Assembly: GCA_903845055.1 (NCBI GenBank)
Contig: CAIMWF010000040.1
Coordinates: 54,508-118,507, forward strand
Source: an uncultured Bacteroidales bacterium
GTDB taxonomy: Bacteria > Bacteroidota > Bacteroidia > Bacteroidales > FEN-979
DNA: 64,000 nt
Direction: 5' to 3'
Position numbers and translations under genes: made by a program. Within the stretch, counting starts at the first letter, position 1. Each line of letters starts with the position of its first letter. The notes beneath the pieces were generated by a model that was not told the DNA's origin, made no database searches, and saw nothing but the letters and a program-made list of their open reading frames with translations. Of the stretch, positions 21,871 to 63,400 are shown piece after piece.

Positions 21871-22003
21871 ACGAGTGACAAGTGACGAGTGACGAGTGAC
21901 GAATTGAATTTACGATTTACGAATTACGATTTACGATTTAAACTGCTTTGCCGGCGCAGAAGAAAATAGCTTACCGTCATTCGTCACTCGTCACTCGTCA
22001 TTA
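21871..22003. repeat. heptamer arrays (GTGACGA)n-(TTTACGA)n, then inverted (GTCACTC)n after about 36 nt
   Basis: acgagtgacaagtgacgagtgacgagtgacgaattgaatttacgatttacgaattacgatttacgattt...gtcattcgtcactcgtcactcgtcatta. Confidence 0.92.
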
Positions 22004-28405: not shown

Positions 28406-28470
28406 AATTTACGATTTACGATTTACGATTTTAAAAATGACAAGTGACAAGTGACAAATGAATGTGACAT
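28406..28470. repeat. composite heptamer array (ACGATTT)n-(GTGACAA)n
   Basis: aatttacgatttacgatttacgattttaaaaatgacaagtgacaagtgacaaatga. Confidence 0.92.
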
Positions 28471-28634
28471 ATGCCGTTCGTTCGTAATTATTTTTTGTTA
28501 TGATATTGTAAAAATTATTGTCCATCAAAACGGTTGTAAAGTTATGCAAATATTTCTTTTTAAGTATTGCGGTATCACATGTCCTGAATAAAAAAATCGA
28601 AACATTTATTCCGTCATCCCCTCCTGCAAATTCC

Positions 28635-28700
28635 AAATCGTAAATCGTAAATCGTAAATCGTAAATCCACTTGTCACTCGTCATTCGTCCCTCGTCATTC
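28635..28700. repeat. composite heptamer array (AAATCGT)n-(GTCACTC)n overlapping the 3' end of the MFS gene
   Basis: aaatcgtaaatcgtaaatcgtaaatcgtaaatccacttgtcactcgtcattcgtccctcgtcattc. Confidence 0.92.
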
Positions 28701-42491: not shown

Positions 42492-44459
42492 ATGATCAAC
42501 CCCGGAAAAAATAATAATCACAGGATCAGTGCCGCCGATACGGCACTGATCGCTGCGATTCTTGTTATCGGGGCGATCCTCCGCTTCTGGCGGCTGCACG
42601 ACATCCCCTTCACCTACGACGAATTCAGCGCGATTTTCAGGACGAACTTCTCAACTTTCGGCGAACTGATCGAAAAGGGGGTAAAGGTCGACACCCATCC
42701 CGCCGGTGTCCAGGTCTTTTTATTCTATCTTGTTAAATTTTTCGGCAGTTCGGAAGCGGTCGTAAAAACACCGTTCATTCTTTTCGGCCTGGTCTCCGTC
42801 TGGCTGGTATACCTGGTGGGCAAAGACTGGTTCAATTCCACCACGGGGCTGGTGTCGGCTGCATTCGTCTCCTTCCTGCAGTTCCCGGTAATGTACAGCC
42901 AGATCGCGCGGCCCTATGCGTCCGGCCTGTTTTTTTCGCTTCTGATGGTCTTTTTCTGGACGAAAGTCATCTTCCACCCGCAACGAAGGTATTATGCCAA
43001 CCTTGCCGGGTATGTGCTGGCAGGTGCACTGTGCACCTACAACCACCACTTCAGCCTGATGTTTGCCGCCATGGTGGCCGGGACTGGTTTGTTTTTCTGC
43101 CCCCGGCACCGCATGGTCCCTTACCTGGTGGCAGGCATCCTGATCGCACTTTTATATGTTCCCCACCTGTCGATTTTCTTTACCCAGCTGGGCATGGGGG
43201 GTGTGGAGGGATGGCTGCACAAACCGCGGTATGATTTCCTGCTGGATTTCATCCGCTATATTTTTCATTTCTCGGTGTTCGTTTACCTGCTGGTTTTCCT
43301 CCTCCTGAGCCTGCAGCTCTTATGGTGGGAAGGGACGGCCCCGAAAAGCCGGAAATTCATCATCATCTCGCTCCTCTGGTTCCTCCTGCCCTTCCTGGCC
43401 GGATTTTCCTATTCCATCTTCCGCAACGCAGTTTTACAGTATTCGGTACTTATCTTTTCATTCCCGTTCCTGTTTTTCATCCTCTTCGGTTATTTCACAA
43501 CCGCGAAACCGCTGCACAAGGTCATCCTGGTCACGCTCGTTGCAGCCATCGTCATTCCCTCCCTGGTGATGGAACGAAAGCATTATACCCTTTTTTACAC
43601 CTCCCCTTATCGTGCGCTCGTGGCGGAATCGAAGCGCGTGACCGATTCCCTGGGCCAATACAACTCCAAGGTCATCCTCGATACCAAGCAGGAGATCAAC
43701 CGGTACTACCTGGAAAAGCTGAATTGCCGCAACCTGCCGTTCGACGACCTGAAAGCCGTCGGGGGGAGAAACAGGCTGCTTGCCTGGCTCGGGCGCTGCA
43801 GGACAAACTACATCGCCTTCGGATGCATCTCTTCCTCCCTGCCCGAGAATTACCCGCTCATCCTCCAAAAATACCCGTACCTGGTGATGCACAAATCGTA
43901 TGTCGGAGGCGATTTCTACCTTTTCTCGAAGATCAGTCCGGTGAAAAAGCTGGATGAGTACTTTTATGCTGCCGTCAACACCTTCGAACCCTCCCTGCCC
44001 GAGTGGGGTTTTGTGAAGGAGTCCCAATGCACTGACTCTTTACCGATCGACGGGAAAAAGTCTTTCCATGCGCGCCCCGGCGCCGAATTCAGCCCGACCT
44101 TTTATGTGCCGCTGCACAACCTGATGCATACCGAAAATGATGTGATCGATGTTGCGGTCGACCTGCGCCTGCCGGTGGTTTTCCCGGCGGCCTGGCTGGT
44201 GGTCAGCGTGACCTCCGGAAAGAAGGTGATTTACTGGGATTCGACCCCTGTAAGCGATTACATATCCCCCGGCGGAACAGGACGGGTGTTTCATTCCCTC
44301 AGGCTCAGCGATACCGACCTGCGCCACCACGGGCTGATCCTGAAGGCCTTTCTCTGGAACCCGGTGAAATCGCCCTATGTCATGGATAACTTTTCCGTCA
44401 GGCTCAGAACCGGCAACCCGGTTTTATATGGGATATACAGGAAGGTGAGCCTTTATTGA
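42492..44459 (+). CDS. glycosyltransferase family 39-like membrane protein
   Basis: 655 aa multi-TM, FTYDEFSAIFRTNFSTFGELIEKGVKVDTHPAGVQVFLFYLVKFFG. Confidence 0.8.
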   Translation: MINPGKNNNHRISAADTALIAAILVIGAILRFWRLHDIPFTYDEFSAIFRTNFSTFGELIEKGVKVDTHPAGVQVFLFYLVKFFGSSEAVVKTPFILFGLVSVWLVYLVGKDWFNSTTGLVSAAFVSFLQFPVMYSQIARPYASGLFFSLLMVFFWTKVIFHPQRRYYANLAGYVLAGALCTYNHHFSLMFAAMVAGTGLFFCPRHRMVPYLVAGILIALLYVPHLSIFFTQLGMGGVEGWLHKPRYDFLLDFIRYIFHFSVFVYLLVFLLLSLQLLWWEGTAPKSRKFIIISLLWFLLPFLAGFSYSIFRNAVLQYSVLIFSFPFLFFILFGYFTTAKPLHKVILVTLVAAIVIPSLVMERKHYTLFYTSPYRALVAESKRVTDSLGQYNSKVILDTKQEINRYYLEKLNCRNLPFDDLKAVGGRNRLLAWLGRCRTNYIAFGCISSSLPENYPLILQKYPYLVMHKSYVGGDFYLFSKISPVKKLDEYFYAAVNTFEPSLPEWGFVKESQCTDSLPIDGKKSFHARPGAEFSPTFYVPLHNLMHTENDVIDVAVDLRLPVVFPAAWLVVSVTSGKKVIYWDSTPVSDYISPGGTGRVFHSLRLSDTDLRHHGLILKAFLWNPVKSPYVMDNFSVRLRTGNPVLYGIYRKVSLY

Positions 44460-44590
44460 GGAATGACGAGTGACGAGTGGCAATTTACGATTGACGAATT
44501 ACGATTGACGATATAACTGGTTGCCGGCCGGCGACCAATATTGCCTATTGCCAATTGCCCACTGCCTATTTCCTATTGCCTATTGCCTAA
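44460..44590. repeat. triple composite array: (GTGACGA)n, (ACGATTG)n, then (TATTGCC)n
   Basis: ggaatgacgagtgacgagtggcaatttacgattgacgaattacgattgacgat...tattgcctattgccaattgcccactgcctatttcctattgcctattgcc. Confidence 0.92.
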
Positions 44591-47196: not shown

Positions 47197-48672
47197 CTAT
47201 CGCTCAATCTCGTTTCTTGTATAACCGAGTTTCAGCAGGTTTCCCGGCTCCAGGATGGTTTCAAGTTTTTCAGCCGGTAAAAGATTCAGCTCTATGTTCG
47301 CCCCGAAGATATCCATTCCCGTGCTTTTCATGATCCGGGCGAGTTCGGAGGCCTGGTGGTAGCCGATATAAGGGACCAGGGCGGTGGTAATCGACGGACT
47401 CCGGTACAACTGCTGCAGGCTCACCTCTGCATGAACGGTCAGACCGTCGAGCAGGTTCGTATCCAGGGTATCATCACAGGCTGTGAGCAGTTTAAGGCTG
47501 TCGATCAAAGCATGGCCGATGACCGGCAGGTAAGCGTTCAGTTCCAGGCACCCCTGCGCGCAGAGTGAACTGATGAGCTGGTCGTTGGCATAAATTTTAT
47601 GTGCGGCGCTGATGACGAATTCGGGGATGACCGGGTTGATCTTGCCGGGCATGATCGAACTCCCCACCTGGCATTGGGGGAGGGAGAGTGACGAAGTCCG
47701 AGTGACGAATGACGAAGTAAGGTCGGAGGATAGCAGGCGGATGTCGGAAACCATTTTTTCGAGGTTCACCGCGTGGGCTTTGAGGGTGGCGTGGACCTCG
47801 ACAAAGGAATCCAGGTTGCTGGTGGCGTCGGACAGGTTCTCGCTGCGGGTCAGGGGAAGCCCGGTGAGCTGCTGGAGGTGCCCGGCGGCCTCCATGATGA
47901 AATAACGGGGAACGGCCAATCCCGTGCCGATCGCACTTCCGCCGAGGTTGACCATTTTGATCCTTTCAAAGCATTTGGAAACACGCCACCAGTCGCGTGA
48001 AAGCGCTTCGCTGCAGGCACTGAACATGTTCCCGAAGGAGGTCGGCACTGCCTCCTGCATTTGCGTGTACCCGGGCCTGAGATCGTTCTGGTGGGTCACC
48101 TCGAGCTGTTCCATGGCAAACCTCAGGCGGTTGATCGTTTTTTCAAGACCCTGGAGCAGGAACATCACGGCCACCCTGAGGGAGGTGGGGATGACATCGT
48201 TGGTCGACTGGTAGATGTTTGCATCCTCGATCGGGTCGATGAGATGGTAACTGCCGGGGAGGGCGCCCAGTTTCAGCAGGGCGACATTGGTAATGATCTC
48301 GTTGACATTCATGTTGATGCTGGTACCCGCACCTCCCGAAACGGCGGGAACGATGAAGTGGTCGAAATGGTCCCCTTCGGCAACCTCCGCGGCTGCATGG
48401 ATGAGATGGGTCAGCCGGTCGGGATGACCGGCGTGATGCTCACCTTTTGCAACATCCGGCCCATGCCCGTGACCATACTTTTCTTCCATCGCTTTCGCAT
48501 ATGCATCCGCTGTCAGGTAGCAGGCTTTTTTCACCAGTCCGATGGCCCGGTACCATTCCGGGTGGAAGGGGGTCGTGTCGGGAAAATTTTTCCGTGCCCT
48601 GGCAGCATGAATCCCATACAGTGCATCTTCGGGCAATTCCATTTCACCAATAAAATCAATCTCTTTACGCAT
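47197..48672 (-). CDS. aspA: aspartate ammonia-lyase / fumarase-superfamily enzyme with atypical insertions
   Basis: GGAGTSINMNVNEI, STNDVIPTSLRVA, GSSIMPGKINPVIPE; start at MRKEIDFIGEMELPEDALYG (48672). Confidence 0.87.
   Translation of the reverse strand: MRKEIDFIGEMELPEDALYGIHAARARKNFPDTTPFHPEWYRAIGLVKKACYLTADAYAKAMEEKYGHGHGPDVAKGEHHAGHPDRLTHLIHAAAEVAEGDHFDHFIVPAVSGGAGTSINMNVNEIITNVALLKLGALPGSYHLIDPIEDANIYQSTNDVIPTSLRVAVMFLLQGLEKTINRLRFAMEQLEVTHQNDLRPGYTQMQEAVPTSFGNMFSACSEALSRDWWRVSKCFERIKMVNLGGSAIGTGLAVPRYFIMEAAGHLQQLTGLPLTRSENLSDATSNLDSFVEVHATLKAHAVNLEKMVSDIRLLSSDLTSSFVTRTSSLSLPQCQVGSSIMPGKINPVIPEFVISAAHKIYANDQLISSLCAQGCLELNAYLPVIGHALIDSLKLLTACDDTLDTNLLDGLTVHAEVSLQQLYRSPSITTALVPYIGYHQASELARIMKSTGMDIFGANIELNLLPAEKLETILEPGNLLKLGYTRNEIER
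47686..47719. repeat. GTGACGA-type heptamer array lying in frame inside aspA
   Basis: gagtgacgaagtccgagtgacgaatgacgaagt. Confidence 0.85.
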
Positions 48673-49247: not shown

Positions 49248-52200
49248 ATGAGCAGAAAATATCGCGCCCGGATTATATTTTTCCTCGTCTGTTTCGTTCT
49301 GCCGGCTATCCATGTCCTGGCAGAGGGCTCCAAAGAGATCTACATCACCACCCACAACACGAGCCTATACCTGTGCAACGACTTCGCCGGCAAATGCAAC
49401 ACCACGCCTCCCTTCAACGGAAACCGCACGCAGTTTGCCATATACGGCTGCGCGGAAGTGGACCGGATGTACTTTGTAAAATTACACCTGTCGGAGGTGA
49501 TCTACCTGGGTTTTAACGGCAGCAACGCCGGCAACAACAACCACATCGTTTTCGAAATCAAGAACCTCGCCGGTACGGTCGTCTATCCCGAAACCACGCT
49601 GCCTGCTTCCGGAACCGGTTTTATCGCCAACATCGGCCAGGCCAGGGTCGGGCCGAACCAGATATACACCACGGGGGGATACACCGCCATCGACTTCCAC
49701 CCTGCCGACACCGGGATGTATTACATCGAATTCACCAAGAAAAACACCTCCAACACCGTTGTCACCGGGAATTTCAATATTGACTTCTTCGATGTTACCC
49801 TGTATGATACCGTCAGCCACCAAGTATACCCCGGCAGGCTCTATTCAAAATCGTGGCAGTTCCAGGAACAGTCGGGATGTTCGGCAAAGACCTATGTTTA
49901 TTCCAACGACAGCATCATCACCTCCTGCACCTTCAACAACCTGGGCGGCGGGGTGTGGGTGCAATACTGCAACCAGACCGGGTGTGCAAATACCGGCAAT
50001 TTCCCGGTTGACCGGAAATCCCTTTATAACCTCCAGGCATTGCTTCCTGAATTCAGGGTATTTTTAAATTTTCCCGATGTCACCCTCTTTCCGCCTGCCA
50101 CGGTGCTGGGCGCTGTGGTCGCCCCCCTGCCCTGGGGCGACCGAAACTGCCTTACGGGGCATGTCCTTTTTCATGTCAATGTGAACAAACCCGGCAAGGT
50201 AACGATCCTCCTTACCTTCGGGGGGGGCTATACCCCCATCACCCTCACCATCACCAACGCGGTGGTCGGGGAGAACATTTTCGACTGGAACGGCCTCGAC
50301 GGGGCCGGGCTTGCCGTTCCCAACAACACCTCCATCACCTTCACCGTGAGTTATATAAACGGCCTTACCAACCTGCCGCTTTACGATGTGGAGACAAACT
50401 CAAACGGGTTTACCATCAGCCTCGAAAGTCCGACCGGGGCGCAGGTGACCTCCTACTGGGACGACACGAACATCCCGGGCGGCATAAACAACTCCGTTAC
50501 CGGGTGCGCAACCCCACCCTGCCATTCATGGGGGAACAACTGGGGTAACCTGAACACGGTCAACACTTGGTGGTACAACGTATCCTCCTCCATCACGCAA
50601 CCCCCGATTTTCGAGTTCCGGAATCCCGGCACCCTGACCTTCCAGCAGACACCACCCCAAAATTACTGCGAAAACACTTCAGGCCACGTGTTTTCAGTGG
50701 CACTTGACCCCAATACCGATGTCTACCACTGGAGTTATACCCCTTCAACAGGTGTGACCCTCGTGCCCAGCGGCAACAGCGTTACCGTAAGTTTCGGGCC
50801 GGGTGCCACCTCGGGGACCCTCAGCGTTTACGGTACCAATACCAACTGCGCCACACAGGGCCCAACCTCAACGCTTGCCATTACCATCAGTGCTGCACCC
50901 CTGCCGGTCATCATAGGCCCGGGATCGGTGTGCGTCGGATCCACCGGGAATTCATATGCGACCCAGACCGGGATGACAGGATACTTCTGGACCATTTCTC
51001 CGGGGGGTACGATCAACAACGGCCAGGGAACCAGCGATGCCCACGTGACCTGGAACACACAAGGGGCAAATACCATTTCGGTATCCTACACCAACAGCAA
51101 CGGTTGTGCTGCGGCCTCCCCGACCTCCTTCCCGGTAACGGTTCATGCGCTCCCAACCCCTACCATCACAGGGCTGCCGAGTGTCTGTGAAGGAGCTTCA
51201 TCCATCACCTATACCACCGAAACGGGAATGTCGGGATACGTCTGGACCGTCTCTTCGGGTGCTACCACCACCGCCGGCGGCACAGGCTTCGACTTCATCA
51301 CGCTCACCTGGACCACTGCCGGGATCCACACGCTGTACGTCAATTACACCGACGGTTTCGGCTGTACCGCCCTTGTTCCCTCCCAGACGACTGTTACGGT
51401 AAACCAGCTTCCCAACGTGACCTTTACCTACAATACCCCGGGCAGTTGCTCCGGCGTGCCCCTGAACATCCAGCTTTCGTCGAATGTTGCCGGCGCCAGC
51501 TTCAGCTGGACCGCCACGGGCAGCTCGGGAAATGTCTCCCCGCAATTTACCGCGGGCACCGGCGACATCACCATCCCCTTCATCAATTCGGGAACCGCCA
51601 TCGAAAACGTGGTATTTTCGGTCGTTCCGTCTGCCGTTGGCTGCTCGCCGGGATCACCGTTCTTGTCCAACCCTGTCCCGATCTACCCGGTTCCCGATCT
51701 TATCGTAACCCCCGCCACCCTTACCGTATGTTCCAATGCCCAGGCCAGTATTTCCCTGAGTTCAGTTGTCCAGAACACGACCTATTCATGGACTGCTACC
51801 GGCGGTACCGGCATCACGCCGGCTACGGTGAACGGTGTCGGAAATATCGCTGAAACCTTCCAGAATTCCGGGAATACGCCCGCAACGGTCAGCTTCGCCA
51901 TCGTGCCTTCCGCCAATGGCTGCAGCAACAATGCCACGGTTCCCTACCTGCTTACCGTCAACCCGAAACCGGGGGTGGTATTCCCGCCCGTCCCGGCCAA
52001 CCCGCAAACCATCTGTTCGGGAACGGCTTCGGCAGCGGTCAACCTCCAGTCGACCGTCAGTTTGCCTGTCATCACCTATGCATGGACGGCAGCAGGTTTC
52101 GACCCGGTCAACCCGACCGGCAGCATCAACGGTTTTACCGCTTCGAACAGCGGCAACACCATCCCGGGTGAGACCATCACCAGCACCCTCCTCGGGCCGG

Positions 52201-54242
52201 GCGTGGTCAAATACGAGGTAACGGCAACCTTTACCAGTGGCGGGGCAACCTGCCCCGGTGATCCCTCCGAATACCAGGTCGTGGTGAACCCTGCCCCCAT
52301 CGTGTCGCTCACGCCGGTCAACCCGGTCGGCCAAACCATATGTTCAGGTACCAGCAGCACCGCCATCACCTTTTCTCCCAATGTCACCCCGGTATCCTAT
52401 GTGTGGCAGGCGGTCGAAGTGGTGGGGATCAATCCCCCCGTCATGAACGGGGTCTCCTCCTCCATCCCGGCACAGGTACTCACCGTGACCGGCGCGGTGC
52501 AGGGACATGTCAAGTACAAGGTCACCCCGACCTTCCTCGGCAGTGGCAGCAACTCCTGCCTGGGGGCCGATTCCTACTCCACCATTTTTGTGAACCCGCT
52601 CCCGTCGCCGCTGATCACCAGCACCTCGCCGCAAACGGTTTGCGAACTGCAGACCAACGTCCTCTATTCAACCCCGGCCATCGCGGGCAACTCCTATTCC
52701 TGGACCGTGACCGGCTCGGCATCCGTGACCAACGCAAATACCCATGCCGTTACAGTGAACTGGGGGCCCTATACCGCGTCGCCCGGCACCGTAACCGTTA
52801 CCGAAACGATCACCGCCACCGGCTGCCAGGTCACCACCCCCGCCTTCCCGGTGACCCTCCAGCAGCGGCCCGTGCCCACCCTGACCGGCACCCAGACCGT
52901 GTGCGACGGAACCTCCGGCGTGCTTTACCAGACCGAACCGCTCATGTCGAACTACACCTGGTCGATCGCCGGCGGATCGATCACCGCAGGCGGCGGAAAT
53001 GCGAGCAATACAGCTGTTGTTACCTGGAATACGCCCGGAGCCCAGTGGATCCAGGTGAATTATGTCAACGGGCTCGGATGCCCCGGTTTCCCGGCCAAAC
53101 AGATCACCGTTACGGTGAACCCGTTGCCGGTCTCCGCCATTTCGGAGGGACCCGGAGCGGTTTGCGACCAGCAGGCCCATAATTACAACACCGCAGCCGA
53201 TGCGGCTTCCACCTTTACATGGTCGGTCATTCCATCCGCCAGCGGGGCGGTGACCACCGGCCAGGGTACCAACGCCATCACCGTGGGATGGCTTGCAAGC
53301 GGGAATGCCACCCTGGCGCTCACCGTCACCAAAACCTCCAGCGGATGCTCCACCAGTTCAACCTACGCGGTACTGGTCCATCCCACCCCGGCGCCGGCTT
53401 TTTCGGCATGTTTCGACGTCAAGACCACCCTCAGCGCCAAAAAATTCACCCTGAAGGGCGGAACGCCATACCTCAACGGGCAGGGGGTGTATTCCGGCAA
53501 CCGGGTCAGCTACAACGCTGGTAGCGGGATGTATGAGTTTGATCCCTTCGGCGCAAGCACCGGGAATTACAACATTACCTACACCTATACCAACACCTTT
53601 GGCTGCGCAGCCTCCACCCCCGCCGTGACCATCACCGTATTCAGCAATGCCTTTGCCTGCAACGGCGATCTGACCGATGTCAGGGACGGCAAAAAATACA
53701 AGACCTCGCTGATCGGCGGGAAATGCTGGATGCGCGAGAATCTCGCCTACGGCACGGTGCTCGACCCGGCCATCCCACAAACCGACAACTGCATCAGCGA
53801 AAAATACTGCCTCACCACCGACCCCACCTGCACCACCTACGGCGGGCTTTACCAGTGGGATGAACTGCTTGCCTACGCCTCCACTTCGGCCGGGCAGGGC
53901 TTGTGCCCTCCCGAATGGCACATCCCCACCGAGGCCGAATGGCAGGCGATGATCGATGCGATCGTTGCCGGGGTCATCCCGCCCGTTGATGGTTTCGGCG
54001 GCAGTTTCCTCAAGGATAACTTCCTGAATCCTGGTTTCCGTGCCCTCACCAGCGGCATCTACTACCTGAACAACACCTGGGCCTTTACCTCCGGGACACT
54101 GACGGGAACCCAGTACTGGAGCTCAACCACCGCAACCCCCACCCGGGGCGTGGCAAGGGGTGTCAACCTCATCAACCCCAGCATTTCGAAATACCAGGGA
54201 AGCAGGGGGAATGCGTTTTCGGTGAGGTGCGTGAAGGATTAG
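49248..54242 (+). CDS. giant secreted PKD/Ig-like repeat protein with C-terminal FISUMP domain
   Basis: 1664 aa; repeated P.P.I.G...VC.G....Y.T..G...Y.W modules; C-terminal LTDVRDGKKYKTSLIGGKCWMRENLAYGT...YWSSTTATPTRGVARGVNL...FSVRCVKD. Confidence 0.87.
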   Translation: MSRKYRARIIFFLVCFVLPAIHVLAEGSKEIYITTHNTSLYLCNDFAGKCNTTPPFNGNRTQFAIYGCAEVDRMYFVKLHLSEVIYLGFNGSNAGNNNHIVFEIKNLAGTVVYPETTLPASGTGFIANIGQARVGPNQIYTTGGYTAIDFHPADTGMYYIEFTKKNTSNTVVTGNFNIDFFDVTLYDTVSHQVYPGRLYSKSWQFQEQSGCSAKTYVYSNDSIITSCTFNNLGGGVWVQYCNQTGCANTGNFPVDRKSLYNLQALLPEFRVFLNFPDVTLFPPATVLGAVVAPLPWGDRNCLTGHVLFHVNVNKPGKVTILLTFGGGYTPITLTITNAVVGENIFDWNGLDGAGLAVPNNTSITFTVSYINGLTNLPLYDVETNSNGFTISLESPTGAQVTSYWDDTNIPGGINNSVTGCATPPCHSWGNNWGNLNTVNTWWYNVSSSITQPPIFEFRNPGTLTFQQTPPQNYCENTSGHVFSVALDPNTDVYHWSYTPSTGVTLVPSGNSVTVSFGPGATSGTLSVYGTNTNCATQGPTSTLAITISAAPLPVIIGPGSVCVGSTGNSYATQTGMTGYFWTISPGGTINNGQGTSDAHVTWNTQGANTISVSYTNSNGCAAASPTSFPVTVHALPTPTITGLPSVCEGASSITYTTETGMSGYVWTVSSGATTTAGGTGFDFITLTWTTAGIHTLYVNYTDGFGCTALVPSQTTVTVNQLPNVTFTYNTPGSCSGVPLNIQLSSNVAGASFSWTATGSSGNVSPQFTAGTGDITIPFINSGTAIENVVFSVVPSAVGCSPGSPFLSNPVPIYPVPDLIVTPATLTVCSNAQASISLSSVVQNTTYSWTATGGTGITPATVNGVGNIAETFQNSGNTPATVSFAIVPSANGCSNNATVPYLLTVNPKPGVVFPPVPANPQTICSGTASAAVNLQSTVSLPVITYAWTAAGFDPVNPTGSINGFTASNSGNTIPGETITSTLLGPGVVKYEVTATFTSGGATCPGDPSEYQVVVNPAPIVSLTPVNPVGQTICSGTSSTAITFSPNVTPVSYVWQAVEVVGINPPVMNGVSSSIPAQVLTVTGAVQGHVKYKVTPTFLGSGSNSCLGADSYSTIFVNPLPSPLITSTSPQTVCELQTNVLYSTPAIAGNSYSWTVTGSASVTNANTHAVTVNWGPYTASPGTVTVTETITATGCQVTTPAFPVTLQQRPVPTLTGTQTVCDGTSGVLYQTEPLMSNYTWSIAGGSITAGGGNASNTAVVTWNTPGAQWIQVNYVNGLGCPGFPAKQITVTVNPLPVSAISEGPGAVCDQQAHNYNTAADAASTFTWSVIPSASGAVTTGQGTNAITVGWLASGNATLALTVTKTSSGCSTSSTYAVLVHPTPAPAFSACFDVKTTLSAKKFTLKGGTPYLNGQGVYSGNRVSYNAGSGMYEFDPFGASTGNYNITYTYTNTFGCAASTPAVTITVFSNAFACNGDLTDVRDGKKYKTSLIGGKCWMRENLAYGTVLDPAIPQTDNCISEKYCLTTDPTCTTYGGLYQWDELLAYASTSAGQGLCPPEWHIPTEAEWQAMIDAIVAGVIPPVDGFGGSFLKDNFLNPGFRALTSGIYYLNNTWAFTSGTLTGTQYWSSTTATPTRGVARGVNLINPSISKYQGSRGNAFSVRCVKD

Positions 54243-54276
54243 AGGTAGCGAGGTAGCGAGGTAGCGAGGTAGCGAA
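54243..54276. repeat. octamer array (AGGTAGCG)4
   Basis: aggtagcgaggtagcgaggtagcgaggtagcga directly after stop codon TAG 54240-54242. Confidence 0.95.
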
Positions 54277-57400: not shown

Positions 57401-60400
57401 GCACCTAACTATGCATGGAGCAGGGCCGCCGTAGCGGGCATCCTCAACCCGGCAGGTTCCGGGGTTGGCTCCGCCATCACCGAAACCCTGGTCAACACAA
57501 CGACCGACCCCATCGTCGTCACCTACCTGATCACCCCCACGGTCAACAACTGCGACGGAACGGTGAAAAACGTACTGGTAACGGTGAACCCGACGGCCGT
57601 GATCACCAGCGCCCCCTCGGCCAACTGGTGCAACAACACCCCGAACACCTATAACATCACCAGCAGCAGCATTGCCCCACCGCCAGTCTTTACATGGAGC
57701 AGGGCGGCTGTTACCGGCATTTCGAACCTGGCAAATTCCGGAACAGGCAACGCCATCACCGAAACATTGGTCAATACAACCCCCGACCCGGTGGTTGTCT
57801 CCTATGTGATCACCCCGACGGTAAACGGCTGCGCGGGGACCCCTTCGACCATTTCTGTCACGGTCAACCCCACTTCGGTGGTTACCAGCCCCGCCACGGC
57901 CAACTGGTGCAACAACACCATGACGACATACAATATCCTGAGCAGCAGCTCCGCCCCGTTGCCAACCTTCGCTTGGAGCCGGGCCGTGGTTGCCGGGATT
58001 TCCAACGTTGCCGGCTCAGGCTCCGGGAACTCCATTTCCGAATCCCTCAACAACACAACGCCCAACCCGGTGATCGTCACCTACCTCATCACGCCGAACG
58101 TGAACGGGTGCAACGGAACCCCCTTCAACCTCCTGGTTACCGTTAACCCGACGGCCGTGATCACCAGCGCGGCGACTGCCAACTGGTGCAACGGCGCTTT
58201 GGGAACCTACAGCATCACCTCCGCCAGCACCACCCCTCCCCCCACCTATGCCTGGACCCGCGCGGCGGTTGCCGGCATCACCCCTGCCACGGGGGCAGGC
58301 ACGGGGAATTCGATCTCTGAAACCCTGACCAACGCAACCCCCGACCCGATCACGGTCAGTTACGTGATCACACCCACCGTCAATGGTTGCGACGGTACCG
58401 TGAAAACGATCGCAGTCACCGTCAATCCCACGGTCGTGATCACCAGCGCGGCAACCGCCAACTGGTGCAGCAACGTTGTAAACACCTATAATATCACCAG
58501 CAACAGCACAACCCCTCCACCGGGATATACCTGGACGCGGGCTGCGGTTCCCGGCATCACGCCTGCCACCGGCGCCGGTTCGGGAAATTCCATTTCGGAA
58601 ACCCTGGTGAATGCAACCACCGACCCCATCGCCGTGACCTACCAGGTCATCCCGGCTGTGAACGGCTGCCCGGGCACCACGAAAACGGTGACGGTCACCG
58701 TGAACCCGACCGCCGTCGTCACCAGCCCGGCCTTGGCCAACTGGTGCAACAATACCCCCTCCACATACAACATCACCAGTTCCAGCACCACGCCGCCACC
58801 GGTTTTTACCTGGACGCGGGGAGCCGTGGCAGGGATCACCCCGGCCATTGGCTCGGGGACGGGCAACTCCATCAATGAAACGCTTACGAACGGCACGCCC
58901 AACCCAATCGTTGTCAATTACGCGATTACCCCAACGGTAAACGGCTGCGCCGGCACGGTGTATAATGTGTCGGTTACCGTCAATCCCACAGCGGTGGTCA
59001 CCAGTACCGCCACTGCCAACTGGTGCAACAATCTCAGCAACACCTACAACATTACCAGCAGCACCACCTCCACAACACCGGTTTACGCCTGGTCAAGGGC
59101 GGCAATACCGGGGATCACCCCCGCAACAGCCTCCGGTTCAAGTGCCGCCATCACCGAGACGCTGGTCAATTCGACCACCGACCCGATCGTGGTGAACTAC
59201 GTGATCAACCTTTCCGTCAACGGATGCCCCGGAACCCAGCAAACCGTCGCCGTGACAGTCAACCCCACGGCGGTAATCACCAGCCCGGCGACCGCCAGCT
59301 GGTGCAACAATACCTCAAATACCTACAACATCCTCAGCAGCAGCACGACCCCTCCGCCAACCTATGCATGGTCAAGAGCCGTCGTGGCGGGGATCAGCAA
59401 CGGGGCGAATGCGGGCGCCGGCAACTTCATAACCGAAACCCTCAACAATACGACGCCTAACCCGGTCGCAGTGACCTATGTGATCACACCCACGGTTAAC
59501 AGCTGCGCCGGGACAACCAAAAACGTGGTGGTGACCGTCAACCCCACCGCCCTGATCACCAGCGCGGCAACCGCCAACTGGTGCAACAACGTGATGACCA
59601 CCTACAACATCCTCAGCAGCAGTACCACGCCGCCCCCCACCTACACCTGGACGCGCGCTGCAGTGACCGGTATTTCCAATGCCGCGGGTGCCGGAGCAGG
59701 ATCCTCCATTACCGAGGCCCTGGTCAACACCACCACCGATCCGGTGGCGGTTACCTATGTCATCACGCCCAGTGTCAATGGCTGCATCGGCACCATCCAG
59801 AATGTCGTCGTTACCGTAAACCCGACGGCGGTGATCACCAGCCCTGTCACAGCAAACTGGTGCAACAACGTCTCCAATTCCTATAACATTACCAGCAGCA
59901 GTTCCACGCCTCCCCCGGTATTTACCTGGACCAGGGCCGCGATGCCGGGAATCACCCCCGCAACCGGTGCCGGTACCGGTATAACCATCACCGAAACCCT
60001 GCTCAATGCAACCACCAATGCAATCGTGGTGACCTATGTGGTGACCCCCACGGTGAATGGCTGTGCAGGAACGTCCCAGAACGTTGCAGTAACGGTGAAC
60101 CCGTCGGCCATCATCACCAGCCCGGCGACTGCAAACTGGGCCAACAATGTATCGAACACCTATAATATCACCAGCAGCACAACCACACCCGTTCCCGTCT
60201 ATTCCTGGACCCGGGCGGCGGTTGCGGGGATCACCCCGGCCACCGGTGCAGGGGTGGGACCGGCAATCACCGAAACGCTGGACAATTCGACCACCAACCC
60301 CATCGTCGTTCATTATATCATCACGTTCACGGTCAACGGATGCCCGGGAACCACCTTCGACCTGGCTGTAACCGTGAATCCCACTTCGGCGATCACCAGC

Positions 60401-63400
60401 CCCCCGACCGCCAACTGGTGCAACAATACGACGAACACCTACAACATCACCAGCAGCACCGTACCCACCCCCGACTATTCGTGGACCCGGGCGGCCGTAC
60501 CGGGGATCTCGAATCCGCCGGGAGCCGGCATCGGCGCCACCATCACCGAAACCCTGGTAAACACCACACCCGATCCCGTGGTAGCGACCTACGTGATCAC
60601 ACCCTCCATTAACGGATTCCCGGGAACTCCGGCATTCGTGGCCGTAACCGTAAATCCCACCGCGGTGATCACCAGCCCGGCAACCGCCAACTGGTGCAAC
60701 AGCATACTGAACTCTTATAGTATCACGAGCAGCAGCACCCTCCCGCCGCCGGCCTATACCTGGACCAGGACCGCCGTAGCCGGGATCACCCCGGCAACAG
60801 GCTCAGGGACCGGGACGCCCCTCACCGAGACCCTGGTGAACGGGACGGTCAACCCGGTCGTGGTTTCCTACCTCATCACTCCTTCGGTGAACGGCTGCGA
60901 CGGGACCCCGAAAACCATCTCCGTCACCGTGAATCCGACGGCCGTCATCACCAGTCCGCCCACCGCCAACTGGTGCAACGGCATCCAGGGAACCTACAAC
61001 ATCACCAGCAGCAGCAACGCCCCCACACCCTCCTACTCATGGACAAGGGCTGCCATGCCGGGGATCACGCCGGCGACCGGGGCAGGCGCCTCCGCCACCA
61101 TCCAGGAGACCCTTACCAATGCAACCACCGACCCCATCGTGGTTCATTACCTGGTGACCCCGACGGTGAACAGCTGCACCGGGACCGTTTATGATGTAGC
61201 GGTTACGGTCAACCCGACGGCCGTGATCACCAGCGTCCCCACCGCCAACTGGTGTAACAGCGTCGTGAATACCTATAATGTGACCAGCAGCAGCGCCAAC
61301 CCGCCCCCGGCATATTCATGGACCAGGGCAGCCGTTGCAGGGATTACCCCGGCGACCGGCGCAGGGGCCGGCGCTGCGATCAGCGAAACGCTCATCAATT
61401 CAACCACCGACCCGATCGTGGTGAGTTATGTCATCACCCCCTCGGTGAATGGCTGTACCGGGACTCCAAAGACGATCAACGTTACGGTAAACCCGACTGC
61501 GGTGGTTACCAGCCCGGCGATTGCAAACTGGTGCAACAACACCTCCACCACCTATAACATTACGAGCAGCAGCACCACCCCGCCGCCAGTCTTTACCTGG
61601 ACCCGGGCTGCCGTGGCAGGGATCACACCGGCTACAGGCGCGGGCTCGGGCAACGCCATCACCGAAACACTTACAAATGCCACCACCGACCCGCTCGTGA
61701 TCAGCTACGTGGTCACCCCTACCGTGAACGGCTGCGCCGGAACACCGAAGAACATATCCGTAACGGTCAACCCGACGGCCGTGATCACCAGCCCCGCCAC
61801 CGTGGCATGGTGCAACAATGTCATGAACACCTACAACATCACCAGCAGCAGCACGGCTCCGCCCCCGGGATACAACTGGACCAGGGCCGTGGTGGCCGGC
61901 ATTTCGAATGCAGCAGGCGCAGGTGCAGGTAATTCCATCATCGAAACCCTTGTGAACACGACCACCGGCCCGGTGACGGTGACCTATGTGATCACCCCCA
62001 CGGTGAACGGCTGCACCGGCACAGTGAAAAATGTCGCTGTTACGGTCAACCCCACACCGCACCTGATGAACACGGCGCCGTTGCCCATCTGTTCGGCAGC
62101 CACCTTCAATGCAACGCTGCTACCCGATGTGACCGGCGGCAACTTTACCTGGACCGCCTCCTGTTCCCCCGCTGGTTCAGTCACCGGCTTTACCACACCC
62201 CAGCTTACCGGCACCACCACCATCAACGATGTGCTTACAAACTCCGTCAACATACCGGCAACCGTCACTTACGCAATAACACCCGCCGCAAACGGGTGTC
62301 TCGGGGCCGTGACAAACTATGCGGTCATCGTTTACCCGGTGCCCAACATCTCCTGCCTGGCGGGACAGTCCATATGTTCAGCCACTGCAACAGCCCCGGT
62401 TACCCTGAATTCAACGGTTACCGGCACGGTCTATTCCTGGTCGGCAGCCTGCCCGGTCGGCAGCGTGAATCCCTGCCCGGTAATTCCCGGCATCGCAAAC
62501 CCGATCCCGGCCACCAGTTTCACGAATGTGACCAACGTCCAGCAAACGGTGACCTATACCATCACCTCCGCTTATAACGGATGTCCCGGCACGACCACCA
62601 CCCACGTGGTGACGGTCAATCCAAACGCGACGGTGACCAACTGGCCGCTCGACCAGACCATTTGTTCCGGCGGCTCAAGCATCCAGGTTAATCTTACCTC
62701 GAATGTAACCGGGGCAACCTATGCATGGACCGCTTCGACTATCTCGCCCATTACAGGCTTTACAACGACCGGGAGTGACCACATCCCCATCCAGAACCTC
62801 TTCATCCCTCCCGGCAACACCGGGTTTGTGAACTACCATATCACCCCGATATTCACCAGCGGACCGACCTGCCCCGGGACCTCCGCCGACTACAAGATCA
62901 ACGTCAACCCATTGCCGACCCCGGTCATCAGCGGGAATACCCTTGTTTGTGAATTGCAGCCGAATGTCACCTATACCACCCCATCCGTTCCCGGTCATTC
63001 CTATCTCTGGAACGTAACAGGAGCATCCAGCGTGACCAATGCCACCACCAACACCGTGACGGTGACGTGGGGACCCTACACCGCTTCGCCTGGCACCCTG
63101 TCGGTGACCGAGACGATCGATGCAACCGGGTGCCTGCAAACCACCTCAACCTATTCGGTGACCCTACAGCAAAGGCCCATCCCCTCCCTGACGGGTCCGC
63201 AGACGGTTTGCGACCAGTCCTCGGGCAATGTATACCAGACCGAAGCGGGCATGTCAACCTACACCTGGTCCATCAACGGCGGCAGCATCATGACGGGCGG
63301 CGGAAACGGAAGCCCGACGGCCACCGTCACATGGAACACCCCGGGCACCCAGTGGATCCAGGTCAACTATGTCAACAGCCTCGGATGCCCCGGTTACCCG

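Follow-up and report, generated by a model that had tools for sequence, protein, structure and literature searches.

Dispersed 7- and 8-bp tandem repeats occur in frame in a variable loop of an aspartase-like lyase and in other conserved enzymes of Bacteroidales

Arrays of short tandem units, 7 or 8 bp long and scattered through the genomes of a group of Bacteroidales, probably enter genes repeatedly and survive there only when they are stop-free, in frame and located in tolerant loops. We assign this reading a probability of about 0.8. The instance found in the 64,000-nucleotide stretch analyzed here (the window, which belongs to the genome designated G000) is a heptamer array inside a gene coding for an aspartase-like enzyme.

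The gene, on the minus strand between positions 47197 and 48672, encodes 491 amino acids from the ATG at 48672 and belongs to the aspartase/fumarase superfamily. Its product matches Lyase_1 with an E value of 1e-54 and combines this fold with the GSSxMPxKxNP signature expected of AspA proteins. The best solved structural match is the aspartase of Bacillus sp. YM55-1 (1J3U, E 5e-84), and comparison with 1J3U and 3R6V gave about 35% identity and a TM-score of about 0.9. The name aspartase-like was adopted because the scores fall under the curated NCBIfam AspA cut-offs (438 vs 510 for PRK12273 and 361 vs 681 for TIGR00839). The signature, GSSIMPGKINP in this protein, forms the catalytic SS loop and is intact (47632–47664, minus strand). 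Two variable loops were delimited on the same strand: site 1 (48418–48474, residues ~67–85), where the confidence of the structural model is low, and site 2 (47680–47721, residues ~318–331), which is prone to insertions and contains the array.

The array occupies positions 47686–47719, in the loop that follows helix 288–315. On the plus strand it consists of four degenerate units, GTGACGA-AGTCCGA-GTGACGA-ATGACGA; the coding minus strand, ACTTCGTCATTCGTCACTCGGACTTCGTCA, reads TCGTCAT-TCGTCAC-TCGGACT-TCGTCAC, encodes SSFVTRTSSL (the in-frame translation of the segment being TSSFVTRTSS) and leaves the open reading frame uninterrupted. The first-pass annotation had placed a frame-keeping array at this location, in agreement with the sequence and the open frame, and had estimated that it makes the protein about 4 amino acids longer than a canonical aspartase, which fits a 4-residue gap with respect to 1J3U. 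Autocorrelation at period 7 was discarded as proof by itself, as it is unremarkable for a 34-base stretch across 64 kb. Since period 7 alone is too weak, family-specific and loop-specific tests were used instead. The pattern RTGACGAN7RTGACGARTGACGA had one match in the window and none in 100 shuffles, and the period-7 score inside the loop was equalled by 1 of 500 shuffles. The case for the array rests on its match to the heptamer family of its own genome, which is not a product of chance, plus the relatives described below. The age and origin of the array are uncertain because it is short and imperfect, one of its four units being AGTCCGA.

The heptamer GTGACGA is found 21 times in the window, where 7.7 occurrences are expected. 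In the complete 3.95-Mb assembly a three-unit TGACGAN array pattern had 173 matches and its reversed control had none. The earlier proposal that the array is one of a set of repeats scattered over intergenic regions is supported. A sample of 577 kb included 40 period-7 and 12 period-8 arrays, with an additional 24 at period 14 (2 × 7), while each of the other periods from 4 to 15 accounted for at most 4 arrays. Forty-five of the 52 period-7 and period-8 arrays lie outside open reading frames and about 7 lie inside. The genome thus conforms to the dispersed-heptamer class: tandem 7-bp units occur at many loci far over chance, mainly in intergenic regions, and inside open reading frames only in the stop-free sense. 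Every array internal to an open reading frame of at least 450 nt has the TCGTCAC sense. Whatever the frame, a GTGACGA array read in the sense direction encounters a TGA in no more than 21 nt, and the bias is therefore partly due to the stop codon contained in the opposite sense. Most of the long open reading frames that overlap arrays in G000 were discounted as genes, the array being located at their ends or the frames being antisense-like.

Several unit families coexist in this genome, including TGACGAR, ATTTACG, GAGGTAGC and AATTAAA, among others. Within the window, non-coding arrays (all recorded without strand) are present at 2475–2550 (ATTTACG-type and GTGACGA), 21871–22000 (GTGACGA, ATTTACG and inverted TCGTCAC) and 28407–28700 (ATTTACG and TGACAAG, then AAATCGT and TCGTCAC), and ATTGACG/TATTGCC arrays (44455–44589, also without strand) lie at and after the stop codon of the open reading frame at 42492–44459. 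A perfect octamer array of GAGGTAGC (54242–54275) begins at the stop codon of a 1664-amino acid open reading frame (49248–54242). Most array clusters, 34 of 44, are single arrays, and those with several are a minority. No shared flanking sequence or recurrent flanking k-mers were found around the arrays, and the idea of a shared carrier element was rejected. In the wider order, only 7 of 148 genomes contain exact three-unit ATTTACG arrays.

The comparison of orthologs, most of them from draft metagenome assemblies, showed a significant 7- or 8-mer array (≤1/500 shuffles) in the same loop in 13 of 17 species of the genus and in none of 7 relatives from other genera. The units differ among species: TCGTCAY in G000 and G004; TCACGCG in G001, G014 and G017, with a degenerate version in G002; AACTTACC in G016; CACCATTT in G015; GGGACRC in G010; GAAACGC accompanied by an octamer in G006 and G012; and AGTCAGC in G003, where the gene is a pseudogene. 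In G006 and G012 the site 1 loop is also filled with 8-mer and other repeats. The unit present in the loop is usually one of the units dispersed in the host genome (permutation p ~2.5e-5, uncorrected for relatedness). Among 30 genomes, AACTTACC was counted 103 times in G016, 106 in G010, 14 in G018 and 0 or 1 elsewhere, and CGGGACRC 365 times in G010, 27 in G004 and no more than twice in any other genome. An exception is G002, which has the degenerate TCACGCG-type loop, yet no three-unit TCACGCG array was found in its genome. All 15 genes of the genus that span both flanks of the loop maintain a single open frame, though units of 7 and 8 nucleotides are not multiples of 3. As judged from these alignments, the loop preceding GSSxMPxKxNP is a recurrent landing site, or hotspot, in the genus, so that the apparent oddity in one gene belongs to a broader pattern of tiny repeats entering genes. 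The suggestion that the repeats can move or expand into genes is supported by this comparison, which indicates both entry and turnover.

The history of the loop differs from the one initially envisioned, in which the array had replaced a conserved SGPRxGL segment. The Bacillus sp. YM55-1 aspartase (1J3U, 3R6V) has SGPRAGLSEIVLP ahead of the signature, whereas the window enzyme and its array-free relatives have either SDxxGxxExxxP or an array at that segment. The array-free relatives in other genera read SD(L/I)xGxxExxxP, for example ASDLAGKKEIEIPQKQAGSS and SDLAGKKEIEIPQKQA, and since they already lack SGPRxGL, its loss is older than the array. The distance from RLLxSD to GSSIMP ranges from 13 to 66 amino acids in the genus and from 14 to 15 in the other measured genera of the family; it is 19 residues in this genome, 13 in G005 and 17 in G008. 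The last two are the nearest relatives in a PurL plus AspA tree and, because they have no array in the AspA loop, the array is best described as an addition of ~6 residues with respect to the sister G005, on top of the older change in the segment. Compared with array-free relatives in general, the loop of the window enzyme is ~5–6 residues longer. The TSSFVTRTSS residues were also looked for among the aligned orthologs from genomes without the repeat family, and none was seen to carry them. It is possible that an ancestral array, common to this lineage and the sister clade that bears TCACGCG, later disappeared from G005 and G008.

Other conserved enzymes have similar arrays. PurL is an essential enzyme of purine synthesis. 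In G000, its gene (L181, 1080–4811, minus strand) includes three in-frame arrays, one ATTTACG-type, one TCGTCAC-type and one of the octamer AATGGCGA, and the same three sites hold other units in relatives. Periodicity was detected at PurL site 1 in 20 of 29 genomes. At site 3, G000, G015 and G023 have related octamers, and in G013 sites 2 and 3 are periodic with their length retained. The PurL loops of G022 and G029 (L211 and L210) also hold other elements that look dispersed: a palindromic-type element, CTCACCCCC...CTCTCC...GGAGAGGGG, and a longer-unit repeat with GACGGGGCAT. The MeaB gene of G000 (L169, 1533–2660, minus strand) has an ATTTACG array, translated as LTIYDLRFTN, just upstream of the P-loop. 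In UvrA of the sister genus g8, in-frame arrays are located between the ABC signature and Walker B, where the spacers measure 110 and 57 residues in G030 vs 19 in the genus of the window, and the array-encoded extra reaches up to ~90 residues. Long fused UvrA proteins of G030 (L131, 10217–15439) and G036 (L136, 3–5093) carry heptamer arrays in both halves. In the genus to which the window belongs, the UvrA spacers that were read have 19 amino acids and contain no array. In the sampled loci, picked in part for carrying these genes, 84 arrays internal to open reading frames were detected at periods 7 and 8 vs 2 at periods 5, 10, 11 and 13.

The properties of the aspartase-like enzyme bear on whether the array damages or serves the protein. 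Outside the loops, core dN/dS with respect to relatives is ~0.05–0.12, with dS near saturation, and in the closest pair, G012 and G006, it is 0.12 in the core vs ~1.1 in loop 2. The GGAGTSINMN, QSTND, TQMQEAVP and GSSIMPGKxNP motifs are conserved. The AlphaFold2 model of the window enzyme has a mean pLDDT of 85.6; the 606-amino acid G012 enzyme was modeled with a high-scoring core and with values under 50 for the stretches that the arrays encode. The idea that the enzyme is newly defective is not supported, given strong purifying selection on the core, intact signature and catalytic residues and a confident predicted fold, and the window enzyme most likely still works with its lengthened loop. 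That the array is instead part of the loss of a decaying or newly defective gene is improbable. The gene is dispensable in the genus, with no AspA-like ortholog found in G009, G011 and G013 and a pseudogene in G003 (L066, ~750–1800) that has internal frameshifting deletions and a loop still repeat-like, so that decay could be occurring elsewhere; against this, the frame is intact and the catalytic motifs conserved in the window genome, dN/dS is low, and 11 of the 13 array-bearing species have an unbroken gene in a single frame, the other two being the G003 pseudogene and G010, where it is split between contigs. A selected function of the array-encoded loop, as a regulatory, binding or oligomer contact element and not merely a tolerated one, would be in line with its recurrence in most species of the genus beside the catalytic SS loop. 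We consider it unlikely, because loop sequence, unit and length (13–66 amino acids between the flanking motifs) differ freely, loop dN/dS is near 1 in the single close pair, the nearest relatives have no array and the longest case is predicted to be disordered.

The array, its frame, its family, the recurrence across species, the matching of units and the constraint on the core are read from the sequences themselves. According to the repeated-entry reading, arrays would arise at new sites, mostly intergenic, and a few would enter protein genes, where they would persist only when oriented without stops, with a net length that preserves the frame and at a loop able to tolerate them; a persisting array would then be translated as an extra flexible loop. 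New arrays would probably be copied from elsewhere in the same genome, perhaps by template switching or repair, which best explains the unit matching, and local slippage would afterwards alter their copy number. Slippage without any copying between loci, with arrays grown in place from chance seeds and unit likeness due to base composition, would account for the PurL site 3 octamers of G000, G015 and G023, which look vertically inherited and drifting, as well as for loops that turn periodic at constant length, like PurL sites 2 and 3 of G013. It is nonetheless a rather unlikely explanation, since exact unit families are found at many unrelated loci per genome and are nearly absent in sister species, the AspA unit matches the dispersed unit of the host beyond chance, and reversed-pattern controls of equal base composition are near zero. 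Misjoining of repeats inside genes during metagenome assembly could be suspected, as most genomes are draft MAGs and in G010 the two parts of the AspA gene lie on different contigs, divided within its GGGACRC array; such an artefact is, however, very improbable because independent assemblies from several projects place in-frame, stop-free arrays at identical codon positions, and misjoins are expected to break ~2/3 of the frames. A more ambitious proposal, possible but tentative, is that an active process writes species-specific 7–8-nt arrays at new sites, essential genes included, and swaps unit families over time, with the loops of core enzymes as its record. If true, the arrays would represent a novel type of dispersed element, one that is not palindromic and has no recognizable carrier.

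Some aspects of these arrays are already known from other bacteria, namely heptamer arrays, the orientation rule inside open reading frames and, in Rickettsia, in-frame selfish insertions. The Rickettsia palindromic elements (RPEs) are short dispersed repeats that interrupt unrelated metabolic genes without shifting their frame (Ogata et al. 2000, 2002, as reviewed in PMC10969869) and share with the window arrays this mode of insertion, apparently compatible with protein function. RPEs are palindromic, ~150 bp long and grouped in conserved families, whereas the arrays have 7–8-bp tandem units, no conserved surrounding element and, at any one site, a unit that changes by species. The arrays (in the AspA-like gene, PurL, UvrA and MeaB) thus resemble the RPE/MITE class in being inserted in frame into several conserved genes unrelated to one another, but the conserved ~100–150-bp palindrome with recognizable ends is absent. 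TAACTGA direct repeats from Beggiatoaceae, Cyanobacteria and Bacteroidetes (MacGregor 2015, PMC4679880) are likewise abundant, mainly intergenic heptamer tandem arrays, and inside open reading frames the orientation that carries the stop occurs only at the ends of genes (PMC4679880). Those located in open reading frames are found chiefly near the termini of proteins and in hypothetical ones, and a single unit sequence recurs across taxa (PMC4679880); here, in contrast, many units recurrently fill internal loops of conserved enzymes. G-rich heptameric repeats are known in Xanthomonas and Nostoc, and heptanucleotide repeats of Calothrix are cited in the same source; the Xanthomonas and Nostoc units form G-quadruplexes, and the accessible portion of that paper does not report recurrent occupation of enzyme loops (PMC4692102). 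No description of recurrent in-frame 7- or 8-mer occupation of the same conserved-enzyme loops was found in the literature searched, which was mostly without subscription papers.

The arrays show how, by a simple and repeatable route, non-coding repeats turn into parts of core enzymes of metabolism and repair, with different species serving as natural replicates at matching residues. Because unit sequences act as tags, dispersal, turnover and the structural tolerance of loops become directly measurable. They are also a warning for annotation, as repeats may be the source of length differences among enzymes of this kind. Repeats of a different size are present in the window as well: at 58136–61887, a 279-bp unit is repeated in tandem in ~13.5 copies with a 67% match.
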